A stretch of DNA of 64,000 nt from assembly GCF_000512735.1 (NCBI RefSeq), contig NZ_CP007028.1, positions 558,001 through 622,000 of the forward strand. The letters are read 5' to 3'. A program made the position numbers and the translations under genes. Shown piece after piece: positions 4,686-8,596 of the stretch (positions are counted from its first letter, which is position 1; the number at the start of each line of letters is the position of its first letter). The stretch is from Thermocrinis ruber (lineage in GTDB: Bacteria > Aquificota > Aquificia > Aquificales > Aquificaceae). The notes beneath the pieces are model-generated. The model was given only the letters and a program-made list of their open reading frames with translations. It was not told the origin of the DNA and searched no databases.

Positions 4686-6315
4686 AGGCTATGCCTTTTT
4701 GATCCTCTCCTCAGTATTTTTTCTTGGGGTAGTTATTGCAGGGCTCTTTCATCTCAAGCAGGTTGGAATTCATTATTTTGCCCTTTTGTTTGTCTCGGGT
4801 TTTCTGTTTGCAGTGTCCTTTTTGAAGTTCCTCTGGGATAGCCTAAGGGCACTCTACCGAGACTACAAAAAGTTTAACAGCCTTCCTGTCTTTCTCTTTG
4901 AGTTTTTTGCCAGTATAAAGCTTGCCATATTTTTGATGATCGCCATAGGCATTCTCTCTATGCTAGGTTCCACCTACATAGAACAAAACAGACCCTTTGA
5001 ATTTTATGTGAATAAGTACGGTCCGGCGAAGGCAGAGTGGTTTTGGAAGCTGTGGCTAAACGATGTTTTTCACTCATGGTATTACATCCTGTTTGTTGCT
5101 TTGCTTGCCCTAAACCTGATCCTCTGCTCTTACAAGAGACTGCCCAGCGTGTGGAAGCATACCTTTTCGAAGGAGAGGTTTCAAAAACTGGACGAGCACT
5201 TGGAAAAACACCTAAAACCCATAGAGGTCAAGATAAACCCGGACAAGGAAAAGGTCATAAGATTTCTCCAGTCAAAGGGCTTTAAGGTTTATGCGGAGGA
5301 AGAAGGAAACAGGATTTACCTTTACGGAGAAAAGGGTAAATACTCCCGGCTTGGGGTTTATGTGGTACATATAGCCCTACTTGTGATAATGGCAGGGGGA
5401 CTAATAGACGGACTCTTTGGAAAGAGGGGCATGGTCATTGTGCCGGAGGGTGCAAGAGAAAACATAATGACAAGCCTTAGCCAGGATAAGGTCTATAGGC
5501 TTCCCTTTCAAATTAAGGTAAATGCCTTTCACATAGTTTCCTACGAAGAGGAGGCAAAGAGAAAGGGAAAGGAGTTTAAAGGGGACCCAAAGGTAAAGGA
5601 TGCCATTGCAAGCTTTGAAAGTGAAATAGAGATCATAGAGAACGGCAGGGTGGTCGCCAAAGGAACAGTGGCTGTAAACAAGCCCTTTGAGTACGGAACC
5701 TACAGAATATTCCAGGCTAGCTACGGGCTAACGGGCAGTGCGGGCTATGTTAAGCTTTCTGTCTTTGACAGAAGAGTCCTTCCGGAGGACCCCCAAAGGG
5801 CGCTTTTGGGAACGGTGGAGCTCAGGGCTGGGCAGGTGGCAGAGTTTAAAGACATGCTCCTTTCCATTGACAGGTCTGTGTTGAACTTAGAAAACCCAGA
5901 GGACACAGAACATCTAAAGCCTGCCCTGATGATAAAGGTGCTAAAGGATGGAAAATCCTACGATGTACCGGTTATTTACTCTCCTGAGCTTACCATCTTT
6001 GCCTTCTTTCAACTTAGGGAACTTTCTGACTTTCCTTACATATTCTTCTTAGAGGACTTTAGACCTCAATTTTTTAGTGGTCTGCAGGTTTCCTACAGCC
6101 CGGGTACCACTTTGATCTGGGGAGGTTCTATACTTTTGGTTTTGGGACTGGTCTTAGCCTTCTACACCATCCACCGTAAAGTTTGGGCAAGGATAGAAGG
6201 AAACAGCCTTAAAATATCCTTTTGGTCCCACAAGCTACGGGAAGAGTTCAGAAGGAGCTTTATAAAGGACCTGGAGGAACTCGGTTATGTGGAGAAGAAT
6301 TTTAGAGAGCGGTAA
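4678..6315 (+). CDS. ResB/Ccs1-type cytochrome c biogenesis protein
   Basis: Inner-membrane protein of the system II (Ccs) cytochrome c maturation machinery, which delivers haem and keeps apocytochrome thiols reduced. Hydrophobic segments at about residues 6-25, 33-52, 75-95 and 135-155 precede a large extracytoplasmic domain (about 250-460), with a last membrane helix near 475-500, as in the ResB family. ATG 4678 is preferred over TTG 4672 because AAGG lies about 9 nt upstream. The partner ResC/CcsA is not in this window. It overlaps yqhA by 29 bp. Confidence 0.88.
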   Translation: MLKGYAFLILSSVFFLGVVIAGLFHLKQVGIHYFALLFVSGFLFAVSFLKFLWDSLRALYRDYKKFNSLPVFLFEFFASIKLAIFLMIAIGILSMLGSTYIEQNRPFEFYVNKYGPAKAEWFWKLWLNDVFHSWYYILFVALLALNLILCSYKRLPSVWKHTFSKERFQKLDEHLEKHLKPIEVKINPDKEKVIRFLQSKGFKVYAEEEGNRIYLYGEKGKYSRLGVYVVHIALLVIMAGGLIDGLFGKRGMVIVPEGARENIMTSLSQDKVYRLPFQIKVNAFHIVSYEEEAKRKGKEFKGDPKVKDAIASFESEIEIIENGRVVAKGTVAVNKPFEYGTYRIFQASYGLTGSAGYVKLSVFDRRVLPEDPQRALLGTVELRAGQVAEFKDMLLSIDRSVLNLENPEDTEHLKPALMIKVLKDGKSYDVPVIYSPELTIFAFFQLRELSDFPYIFFLEDFRPQFFSGLQVSYSPGTTLIWGGSILLVLGLVLAFYTIHRKVWARIEGNSLKISFWSHKLREEFRRSFIKDLEELGYVEKNFRER

Positions 6316-6748
6316 GGCAATAGCCCTCTTACCGTCCCTTAGTTTGTTTTTGGGTGCGGTCTTTTTGAGTTTTTACGGCATTTATATCTTGCTTGAGACA
6401 CTATACAAGGCATTTACTGACGAGGCTACCAGAGACAGCACCATCCTTGCCACCAAGTTCATATCGGTGATGGACATTCACCTCCTTTCTGTGGTTCTGT
6501 ACATCTTTGCGGTAGGGCTCTATGAACTTTTCGTGGGGAAGCTTCAAGTGCCCGAGTGGCTAAAGATAGAAAACATAGACCAGCTAAAGTCCAAGCTTGC
6601 AAGCGTGATTGTGCTGATCCTTGCCATCACCTTTACAAAGAAATTTGTAGAATGGAAAAACCCCTTGGATACTCTCCTCTTTGGTTTGGCAGTATCTGCG
6701 GTTATCGCGGTGCTTATCTTTTACTACAAAATCAAATCGGAACATTGA
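6287..6748 (+). CDS. UPF0114 (YqhA-like) membrane protein
   Basis: A 153-aa membrane protein with four hydrophobic segments (about 13-37, 62-85, 102-118, 127-147). The DIHLLSVVLYIFAVGLYELF stretch and following KIENIDQLKSKL are typical of the UPF0114/YqhA family, whose function is not established. It overlaps the 3' end of the ResB-like gene by 29 bp and is followed 3 bp later by ispE. Confidence 0.75.
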   Translation: MWRRILESGKAIALLPSLSLFLGAVFLSFYGIYILLETLYKAFTDEATRDSTILATKFISVMDIHLLSVVLYIFAVGLYELFVGKLQVPEWLKIENIDQLKSKLASVIVLILAITFTKKFVEWKNPLDTLLFGLAVSAVIAVLIFYYKIKSEH

Positions 6749-6751
6749 GCC

Positions 6752-7642
6752 ATGGAGCTTTTGTCCCCTGCCAAGCTGAACTTGGGACTTTGGCTTTTAG
6801 GAAAGCGTCAAGATAACTACCACGAGATTTTTACTATCTTTCAGGCTATAAACCTCTTTGACAGAATAGAGATTTTAGAAAAAGGTCCCCTGCGGGTTGA
6901 AACCTCCAAAGGCATACCCCAAGAGGAAAATTTGGTTTATAAGGCTTTAAGGCTCATGGAAAGAGCCCTGGGTACTGACTTGGAGGTACAGGTTTACATA
7001 GAGAAGGTCATCCCGATAGGCGGAGGTTTGGGTGGTGGTTCCTCTAATGTGGCGACCGTTTTAATGGGTGTCAACAAACTCTTGGGTGAGCCACTAAGCT
7101 TTGAGGAGCTAAAAGCTATAGCTTCTGCGGTCTCCTCTGATGCGGTGTTCTTTTTGTACGGCGGTTCCGCTGTGGGCACTGGTAGAGGGGAAAAGATCCA
7201 GCCTATTGACCTTCCCAAGTTTAAGTTTGTGGTGATCTATCCGGGGGTCGCGGTTTCCACTAAGAAAATCTACTCCCTGGTGGGTGAAAAACAATTGACA
7301 CCCAACTTGGACCGTGATAAAATAATAGATTGCTTAGTAAGGGGTGAGCTCGAGGTTCTGGAGAACAGGTTGGGCGAGCTGTGTGCGGAAGAGGTGCCCC
7401 AAGTGGGCGAAGTGGTTAGGTTCTTGAGGAGTGTGGGTAAGAGGCCTCTGGTAAGTGGAAGCGGTTCCTGCGTGTTCTTTGTGGGAGAGCTGGAAGAGGA
7501 TCTAAGAAGGGCTTGTCAGCTGAGAGGTTGGCAAGTCTATGAGGTGGAAAGCTTGGGGTGTAGCTCAACTGGCAGAGCACCGGACTTTGGATCCGGGGGC
7601 TCCTGGTTCGAGTCCAGGCACCCCAGCTTTCCCCTCCCATAA
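6752..7642 (+). CDS. ispE: 4-diphosphocytidyl-2-C-methyl-D-erythritol kinase, frame running through a tRNA gene
   Basis: A GHMP-family kinase of the MEP isoprenoid pathway. It starts MELLSPAKLNLGLWLLGKR, and the ATP-binding loop PIGGGLGGGSSN lies at about residues 87-98. About 267 codons precede the tRNA, close to the family's usual length. The same frame then reads through the whole tRNA-Gln gene, giving the tail GCSSTGRAPDFGSGGSWFES..., and stops 16 nt past it. The ancestral stop seems lost, by mutation or by sequence error just before 7554. The tail is probably not a functional domain. Confidence 0.9.
   Translation: MELLSPAKLNLGLWLLGKRQDNYHEIFTIFQAINLFDRIEILEKGPLRVETSKGIPQEENLVYKALRLMERALGTDLEVQVYIEKVIPIGGGLGGGSSNVATVLMGVNKLLGEPLSFEELKAIASAVSSDAVFFLYGGSAVGTGRGEKIQPIDLPKFKFVVIYPGVAVSTKKIYSLVGEKQLTPNLDRDKIIDCLVRGELEVLENRLGELCAEEVPQVGEVVRFLRSVGKRPLVSGSGSCVFFVGELEEDLRRACQLRGWQVYEVESLGCSSTGRAPDFGSGGSWFESRHPSFPLP
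7554..7626 (+). tRNA. tRNA-Gln (TTG anticodon)
   Basis: A 73-nt cloverleaf: acceptor TGGGGTG pairs with CACCCCA, discriminator G, anticodon loop CTTTGGA giving TTG, T-arm with GGTTCGAGTCC. The U1-A72 pair is usual for tRNA-Gln. CCA is not encoded. The gene lies completely inside the 3' end of the ispE reading frame on the same strand. Confidence 0.96.
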
Positions 7643-7660: not shown

Positions 7661-8596
7661 ATGACAGGTTCTATTAAACTTTTGACCGGCACAAGCAATC
7701 AAAAGTTAGCAAAGGAAGTTTCTGAGTATTTAAACATCCCCCTCTCTGATGCGATCGTTTCCCGTTTTAGCGACGGAGAGGTAAGGGTTCAGATAAACGA
7801 GTCTATGAGAGGCGAGGATGTTTTTGTGATCCAGTCCCTCTGCCATCCCATAAACGAGAGCATAATGGAGCTTCTTCTCATCTTGGATGCCATAAAGAGG
7901 GCTTCTGCCGGCAGGATCACCGCAGTGATACCTTATTATGCCTACGCAAGACAGGACAGAAAGGACAAGCCGAGGGTTCCCATAAGCGCAAGACTGTTGG
8001 CAGACCTTATAACGGTTGCTGGTGCCCAAAGGGTGGTGGTGGTAGATTTGCATTCTCCTCAAATTCAGGGTTTTTTTAACATACCCGTTGATAATTTACA
8101 CGCGTTGGGTGTTCTTTACGATTACCTCAAGGATAAAGTGGATGGTGATACGGTGGTGGTTTCTCCCGACGCGGGGGGTGTGGAAAGGGCAAGGCTACTT
8201 GCCAACAAAATAGGTTGCCCCATAGCCATAATTTACAAAAGAAGACCCGAGCCCAATGTAGCGGAGGTTCTTGACATAATAGGGGATGTAAAGGGTAAAA
8301 GGGCTATAATCGTTGATGACATAATAGACACCGCGGGTACCGTGTGTGCTGCCAGTGAGCTGTTGCTCTCAAAGGGTGCCAGTAGAGTGGATGTGGTTGC
8401 CACCCATGGACTGTTGTCCGGTCCTGCGGTGGAAAGACTGAGGAAATCGCCCATAGAGGAGGTGGTTATAACCAACACCATACCAGCAGAACATAAGAAC
8501 CTTGAAAAGCTTAAGATCGTATCCATAGCCCCCCTCATAGGGGAAGCCATAAGAAGGATCCACGAAGGAGAATCTGTTAGCATGCTATTTACATAA
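7661..8596 (+). CDS. prs: Ribose-phosphate pyrophosphokinase
   Basis: Makes PRPP from ribose-5-phosphate and ATP for nucleotide, His and Trp synthesis. The class I motifs are visible: the flexible-loop region YYAYARQDRKD (about 87-97), the divalent-cation/PP region VVVDLHSPQIQGFF (about 126-139), and the PRPP-binding loop VDDIIDTAGT (about 217-226). At 311 aa it has normal length. It follows the tRNA-Gln by 34 bp and leads into rplY, 11 bp away. Confidence 0.97.
   Translation: MTGSIKLLTGTSNQKLAKEVSEYLNIPLSDAIVSRFSDGEVRVQINESMRGEDVFVIQSLCHPINESIMELLLILDAIKRASAGRITAVIPYYAYARQDRKDKPRVPISARLLADLITVAGAQRVVVVDLHSPQIQGFFNIPVDNLHALGVLYDYLKDKVDGDTVVVSPDAGGVERARLLANKIGCPIAIIYKRRPEPNVAEVLDIIGDVKGKRAIIVDDIIDTAGTVCAASELLLSKGASRVDVVATHGLLSGPAVERLRKSPIEEVVITNTIPAEHKNLEKLKIVSIAPLIGEAIRRIHEGESVSMLFT

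Follow-up and report, generated by a model that had tools for sequence, protein, structure and literature searches.

A tRNA-Gln Gene Nested in the 3′ End of ispE in Thermocrinis and a Candidate Promoter Within the Reading Frame

Introduction

In mitochondria, tRNA genes punctuate the transcript, and the excision of a tRNA sets the 3′ end of the message upstream of it; a crustacean mitochondrial example is reportedly cited in the work on selB and selC described below. In Escherichia coli, cleavage of a hairpin by RNase III turns the arfA transcript into a nonstop message, with tagging by tmRNA. Promoters that serve downstream genes from within coding regions are a general phenomenon.

The sole printed bacterial precedent that we found for a tRNA gene nested in a protein gene is selC, the gene for tRNA-Sec, which Alphaproteobacteria carry inside the 3′ end of their selB gene (Mukai 2021, PMC8124441). 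That paper describes itself as the first report of such an arrangement and proposes that a nonstop message is the consequence. No printed report of an overlap between ispE and a tRNA, or of a promoter inside ispE, was found in the literature searched, to which subscription papers contributed little, being mostly out of reach.

Here we analyze a stretch of 64,000 nucleotides from the heat-loving bacterium Thermocrinis ruber (the window), in which a tRNA-Gln gene lies inside the 3′ end of ispE, a gene for an enzyme of the isoprenoid pathway. The genome that contains it (G000) is a single contig of 1,521,037 bases. Like selB with selC, the locus has a complete sense-strand tRNA in the 3′ end of a protein-coding frame, and both arrangements are conserved in a lineage whose relatives place the stop codon inside or before the tRNA. 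The nonstop message is a proposed consequence in both, and a hypothesis for selB and selC too. In contrast to selB and selC, the present case involves another tRNA, another enzyme and another phylum, and is served by the protein-only RNase P HARP. IspE, as assigned by homology, would not act on the tRNA nested in its gene, and we know of no partnership between the two molecules. Moreover, the ispE stop codon does not overlap the start of the downstream gene prs, whereas such an overlap is common, though not universal, in selB. The ispE case also differs in having a conserved promoter-like site within the reading frame and several nested or overlapping pairs in a single genome. Nesting of tRNA genes in open reading frames, so far described for selB and selC, is extended to a new phylum, to a new tRNA and to more than one pair of genes within the same genome. 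The lineage concerned has the minimal HARP as the sole RNase P detected in it.

Results and Discussion

The tRNA-Gln Gene Lies Wholly Within the ispE Reading Frame

The ispE open reading frame (6752..7642, forward strand) runs from ATG to TAA, encodes 296 residues and has no internal stop codon in its full translation. Its product matches the family profile TIGR00154 with 181 bits, above the curated cut-off of 138.7, and by family it is a 4-(cytidine 5′-diphospho)-2-C-methyl-D-erythritol kinase, an assignment made by homology. The NCBIfam model NF011205 aligns to residues 2–266 with 329 bits, below its own cut-off of 364, and the structure match to PDB entry 2v2q covers the same residues; the alignment of a second structure match, 1uek, extends to residue 277. 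The family match and the structure match that rank best thus both stop at residue 266. Together with the confidence values of the structure model (pLDDT), these matches place the family core at residues 1–267 (6752..7552, forward strand). The original prediction, that ispE lacks a stop at the usual end of its family, is borne out: the frame continues past the core.

The tRNA-Gln gene (7554..7626, forward strand) has the anticodon TTG (UUG) and does not encode the CCA end. ARAGORN calls tRNA-Gln(ttg) at 7554–7627, and the Rfam model RF00005 matches at 7554–7626 with 68.7 bits against a gathering score of 29 bits. It is the sole tRNA-Gln among the 43 tRNAs detected in the genome. The entire gene lies on the sense strand within the ispE frame, as selC does within selB. 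The coordinates of the frame and of the RF00005 match agree with the claim that ispE crosses all 73 tRNA bases and stops 16 nt later: the stop codon occupies 7640–7642 and ends 16 nt past the tRNA end at 7626.

Beyond the core, the frame encodes a C-terminal tail of 29 codons (7553..7639, forward strand) that is almost wholly tRNA-encoded and, if translated, would form a putative extension predicted to be disordered. An AlphaFold2 model of IspE has a mean pLDDT of 89.1, with values below 50 for residues 271–296 only; it was built on a 30-row alignment in which just 4 rows carry the tail. A reading of the tail as a conserved domain is unsupported, because the tRNA dictates its letters in the ispE frame and the model shows disorder in this part. 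The tail looks like a disordered by-product that is probably tolerated rather than useful.

Only 3 nt separate ispE from the stop of the preceding open reading frame (6287..6748, forward strand), which has a weak TIGR00645 match below the cut-off; ispE therefore probably shares a transcript that begins further upstream. The gene prs, for ribose-phosphate diphosphokinase (7661..8596, forward strand; open reading frame and profile match), starts 18 nt past the ispE stop.

The Junction Between ispE and tRNA-Gln in Related Genomes

A search of 61 genomes for ispE gave a match in 59 and 58 usable loci; nothing was found in G031 and G045, the match in G013 was weak, and one locus (L062, from G021) covers just the 3′ part of ispE. 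Loci L031–L034 duplicate G001, G004, G005 and G006 and were excluded from the counts. Below, f1 denotes the Aquificaceae, the family of the window, and f2 and f3 denote the two other families compared.

A tRNA-Gln gene stands directly behind ispE in 50 of the 58 loci, the 8 loci without it all belonging to f1. Among the 50, the tRNA is wholly nested in 7, the ispE stop falls at tRNA nucleotides 8–10 in 21, and the stop precedes the tRNA in 22. Full nesting occurs in all 7 genomes of the genus (L001–L006 and L009), whose IspE proteins are 64–100% identical to that of the window. The 21 stops formed by UAG at tRNA nucleotides 8–10 are in f1 (20) and f3 (1), and the stop lies before the tRNA in 6/6 loci of f2 and 16/17 of f3. 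Overlap between ispE and the tRNA thus occurs in 27/27 loci of f1, 0/6 of f2 and 1/17 of f3, counting the loci with the tRNA.

A base error that hides an ordinary stop codon, in sequencing or in assembly, had been named as the observation that would overturn the nested reading. Nothing speaks for such an error, and comparison of the junction in relatives excludes it: the same full read-through is present in 7/7 genomes of the genus, two of them single-contig assemblies and five drafts, which leaves this explanation with practically no probability.

The junctions gtggaaagttaTGGGG (L010) and gtggaaagctTGGGG (Thermocrinis) are consistent with the loss of a single base. Read in codons, the junction is gtg gaa agt taT GGG GTG TAG in L010 and gtg gaa agc tTG GGG TGT AGC in Thermocrinis, which is one base shorter, so the nested state looks derived. 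The frame that Thermocrinis thereby enters contains no stop within the tRNA. The most likely course, as judged from these alignments, is the loss of a single junction base in Thermocrinis, with read-through as the result. A −1 slippage of the ribosome on the GGGG at the tRNA start would instead end the protein in ...VESLGV at the ancestral UAG, by ordinary termination. Such a shift on GGG does restore GTG TAG, in keeping with relatives that end in ...GV, but the canonical X XXY YYZ heptamer is absent in frame, and we consider slippage extremely unlikely.

The original prediction also held that cutting out the tRNA would remove the stop codon from the ispE message. This stands for cleavage at the 5′ end of the tRNA, but it is not peculiar to the full read-through: in the 20 further loci of f1 the UAG of ispE is tRNA nucleotides 8–10, and a 5′ cut would remove the stop there too.

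In the 7 nested genomes, the ispE stop sits 16–19 nt past the tRNA, and the prs match starts 11–19 nt past that stop, with 10–18 nt between the two and no overlap of stop and start; in the other loci whose sequence includes prs, the distance from the ispE stop is 77–129 nt. The short distance would be expected if read-through served to place the ispE stop near prs, allowing ribosomes to re-initiate and coupling the translation of the two genes on uncut transcripts. The short spacer behind the tRNA yields this distance by itself, and the other genera manage without it; there is only a slim chance that coupling is the explanation. Altogether, 42 of the 50 loci have prs behind the tRNA; in the remaining eight (L015, L025 and six loci of f2), prs was absent from the available sequence, which is short in some cases. 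As a separate observation, tRNA-Gln heads a cluster of tRNA genes in the f2 loci L044, L046, L049, L054, L056 and L061.

A Conserved Promoter-like Site Inside ispE

A scan for sigma70-type hexamers found a −35 hexamer TTGACA (7295..7300, forward strand) and a −10 hexamer TAAAAT (7318..7323, forward strand) within ispE. The −10 hexamer is preceded by TG, follows a 17-nt spacer and ends 230 nt 5′ of the tRNA. The site TTGACA-17-TAAAAT (7295–7323) carries 11 of 12 consensus bases, with a spacing inside the sigma70-type range of 16–18 nt. The scanned region of the window as a whole has 7 promoter-like sites versus 5.0 in shuffles, which is no overall excess. Synonymous codon shuffling of the window ispE gave no version scoring 11/12 anywhere in 200.

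Promoter matches were compared in 57 ispE genes, 49 with tRNA-Gln and 8 without it. The place that corresponds to the window site holds a match of at least 10 of 12 bases in 39 of the 49 genes with the tRNA versus none of the 8 without it. Seventeen genes of f1 have an 11/12 match at the same place, 230–234 nt from the tRNA, and five more have a 10/12 match; all 17 genes of f3 have the site, 15 of them at 12/12 and two at 11/12. Four f1 genes with the tRNA (L017, L018, L020 and L026) show no site there, their best match being 9/12 at 79–81 nt before the tRNA. The six f2 genes listed above have an 11/12 site elsewhere, at the extreme 3′ end of ispE, 29–39 nt before tRNA-Gln. In the 8 genes without the tRNA, the best matches lie elsewhere and score 8–10/12, with L053 and L060 reaching 10/12 at other places. 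Where an f1 or f3 gene scores 11/12 or 12/12, synonymous shuffles equal the observed score in 0–12 of 200 versions; for the f2 genes they do so in 0–21 of 200. The figure is 46–85 of 200 for the five f1 genes with 10/12, whose sites are therefore not beyond chance.

Conservation extends to codon choice. Among nine representatives, 86 aligned columns hold one residue (Met and Trp excluded), and 6 of these hold one codon; 4 of the 6 are promoter codons (182, 183, 189 and 190), which comprise the −35 hexamer and the first four −10 bases. This result is descriptive, because the representatives were picked among genomes with an 11/12 site, which favours it, and genera with a weaker site or none were excluded.

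TATAAT occurs at most 35 nt upstream of 23 of the 43 tRNAs of the genome, versus 2.4 by shuffling, whereas tRNA-Gln has no adjacent −10 box of this kind within the same 35 nt, the best candidate being TATGAG, with 2 mismatches. Locus L015 (from G007) keeps both the site and the tRNA with no prs within its available 1,485 nt, so the tRNA, rather than prs alone, seems to be what the site serves. The presence of the site in 39/49 genes with the tRNA versus 0/8 without it leads us to think that tRNA-Gln, usually together with prs, is transcribed mainly from a promoter of its own. The site is, on these sequence comparisons, a conserved candidate promoter that probably drives tRNA-Gln.

Like known intragenic promoters, the site consists of sigma70-type hexamers within the upstream reading frame; unlike the general case, its conservation reaches the codon level in two families, and it is associated with a tRNA that overlaps the reading frame in one of them. 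Such a site is easily overlooked, since annotation treats the region as coding. It also bears on the idea that translation of the message would compete with tRNA processing. The idea would apply only to transcripts that start upstream of ispE, and the competition is probably limited, because a promoter in ispE could yield tRNA-Gln RNA that has no ispE start.

RNase P, Rescue Machinery and the Acceptor Stem

HARP (PF08745) was detected in 36/37 genomes of f1, 6/7 of f2 and 0/17 of f3, and the RNase P RNA (RF00010) in 0/37, 0/7 and 16/17, respectively. This distribution agrees with statements on Aquificaceae in two papers (PMC4227106, PMC9051087). The genome of the window belongs to the HARP-type lineage: its HARP gene is represented by a PF08745 match at G000:C1:1098297-1098854, and no RF00010 match was obtained under the stricter filters of that search. 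Genes for tmRNA and SmpB are both present. No RNase Z scored over the TIGR02651 cut-off; the best match reached 32 versus 293 bits (G000:C1:1207107-1207418, L273). HARP was considered as the cause of the overlap and set aside, since the overlap occurs in f1 and not in f2, yet both have HARP; HARP alone is an insufficient explanation.

The last ispE bases ahead of the tRNA, GGAAAGC (7546..7552, forward strand), can pair with the trailer GCTTTCC (7626..7632, forward strand) beyond the acceptor stem, with one bulged U on the 5′ side. This pairing extends the acceptor stem by 7 pairs in 7/7 loci of the genus. In some other genera with HARP it is of comparable or greater length. The extension is 9–10 pairs in four loci of one other genus, 1–2 pairs in four f1 loci of one genus, and 1–2 pairs in 16/17 loci of f3, the family with the RNase P RNA. 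The mean extension is 5.1 in f1 (27 loci), 6.7 in f2 (6) and 1.6 in f3 (17), and the control, in which leaders and trailers were mixed within a family, gives means of 3.6, 7.0 and 1.7; only the f1 extension exceeds its own mixed control, and family and RNase P type are inseparable in this comparison. A genome-wide rule of extended acceptor stems is unsupported: the 43 tRNAs of the genome run from 0 to 6 pairs, with tRNA-Gln the longest (6, in that scoring). By our estimate, a run of 6 pairs is not rare if several offsets are allowed.

The HARP of T. ruber failed in vitro to cleave a pre-tRNA-His with a 9-bp acceptor stem (PMC9051087). By extension, the 7 additional pairs at tRNA-Gln would shield the long ispE message from HARP. 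The junction could then act as a processing switch, in which the stem of leader and trailer protects the message until its 3′ end is trimmed, so that uncut RNA would give IspE and trimmed RNA would give tRNA-Gln; more broadly, mergers of tRNA genes with protein genes would be tolerated in lineages with HARP. We regard this account, in its shielding mechanism and its broader form together, as quite unlikely.

A Proposed Course of Events at the Locus

The reading that we favour, and hold to be rather probable, combines gene packing, a promoter in ispE for the tRNA, mutually exclusive fates of long transcripts, and the loss of one base. Gene packing would have set tRNA-Gln flush against ispE in the Aquificaceae, and a sigma70-type promoter would have been kept within ispE, about 230 nt upstream, for the main transcription of tRNA-Gln, usually with prs. 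RNA begun inside ispE would have no ispE start and could be freely cut by HARP. Transcripts from upstream of ispE would also span the tRNA, and on these the translation of IspE and the excision of the tRNA by HARP would be mutually exclusive. A cut made before the ribosomes finish would leave an ispE message with no stop codon, to be rescued by tmRNA, while a long transcript left uncut would yield IspE with a tRNA-encoded tail. In the ancestor of Thermocrinis, a base at the junction would have been lost, bringing in a new frame that is open through the tRNA and reaches a stop 16–19 nt beyond it. One stretch of DNA thus appears to have two products, of which any given RNA copy can yield just one.

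As in mitochondrial tRNA punctuation, the message upstream would owe its 3′ end to excision of the tRNA, and an overlap can remove the stop codon. Unlike that system, the ispE case is bacterial, rescue by tmRNA is available, and TATAAT lies close upstream of more than half of the tRNA genes (the 23 of 43 mentioned above). The parallel to arfA lies in the loss of the stop codon to an endonuclease and in the tagging of the product by tmRNA, both of them proposed steps for ispE; the agents differ, RNase III and a hairpin for arfA, HARP and a tRNA for ispE. Should the long transcript be cut as expected, Thermocrinis would offer a simple case for asking how a bacterium copes when the stop codon of a message falls inside or past the sole tRNA-Gln gene detected in its genome.

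Other Overlaps Between tRNA Genes and Protein Genes

Besides tRNA-Gln and ispE, three further tRNAs among the 43 overlap with a protein gene that precedes them on their own strand (4/43 in all). A tRNA-Pro(CGG) gene (G000:C1:1304030-1304102; locus L102, G000:C1:1303700-1307000) lies wholly in the 3′ end of a reading frame for a TRZ/ATZ-like amidohydrolase, and a tRNA-Leu(TAA) gene (G000:C1:1004408-1004492; locus L103, G000:C1:1003900-1007500) lies wholly in that of a class IV aminotransferase. Nucleotides 8–10 of a tRNA-Thr(CGT) gene (G000:C1:256849-256920; locus L101, G000:C1:256400-260000) form the UAG stop of pnp. The C-terminal tails of IspE and of the two other nested proteins are translations of tRNA and should not be annotated as domains. 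A fifth open frame in this genome, at tRNA-Leu(gag), was dropped because it probably belongs to the downstream gene.

For each of these genes, 30 loci were examined out of 58–61 genomes with a match. The overlap of pnp and tRNA-Thr is present in 16/16 loci with the tRNA, at nucleotides 8–10 in 10, by one base in 1 and deep inside the tRNA in 5; pnp enters the tRNA in all three frames, which differ among lineages. Nesting of the tRNA-Pro recurs in 4 loci of the genus and also in L105, whose contig ends just past the tRNA; L108 is cut short, the tRNA is missing at that place in G003, and it stands flush behind the stop in 4 loci of another genus. The tRNA-Leu is nested in G000, G001 and G004 only, among the 30 loci; it is absent there in G002 and G003, and G005 and G006 are unreadable at this place. 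On this comparison of sequences, the conserved feature is a tRNA placed close to the end of the gene, and not the sequence of the tail.

These pairs bear on the proposal that the overlap is a selected either/or switch, as suggested for selB and selC (Mukai 2021, PMC8124441). Excision of the tRNA would make ispE mRNA nonstop, and fast maturation of tRNA-Gln would lower IspE. The position of the ispE stop in or beyond the tRNA in 27/27 loci of f1 with the tRNA, and the presence of tmRNA and SmpB in the genome, are in line with this. Yet the promoter-like site in ispE would uncouple the tRNA supply from the ispE message, and we know of nothing that would connect Gln-tRNA functionally with isoprenoid synthesis. 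The flush arrangement is, moreover, also found with the unrelated genes pnp, amidohydrolase and aminotransferase, and the frame in which pnp runs into its tRNA differs among lineages, with all three frames in use. We therefore regard selection for a switch as unlikely, and prefer gene packing with a promoter for the tRNA inside ispE.

The own-promoter idea does not generalize to the other overlaps, in that pnp and tRNA-Thr lack a comparable conserved promoter. Within 420 nt upstream of the tRNA, the distance searched for each of these tRNAs, no clearly conserved promoter was found for this pair: a 9–10/12 match is present in 5 of 16 loci (three at −352/−353, two at −188) and absent in 11. For tRNA-Leu, the same 420 nt gave no promoter match in 3 loci. 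For tRNA-Pro, TTGACA-16-AAAAAT (10/12) is found at −92 in 3 loci, with a 9/12 variant in a fourth.

Two control genomes show overlaps as well, at 3 of 43 tRNAs in G029, which has HARP, and at 1 of 39 in G056, which has the RNase P RNA (38 examined); these numbers, like the 4/43 of the window genome, are too low for enrichment to be claimed. A fourth overlap in G029 was dropped, as its tRNA-Leu was called by ARAGORN only and is missing from the Rfam list. In L217 (G029) and L241 (G056), which belong to different families, nucleotides 8–10 of a tRNA-Arg(CCG) gene form the stop of the upstream reading frame.
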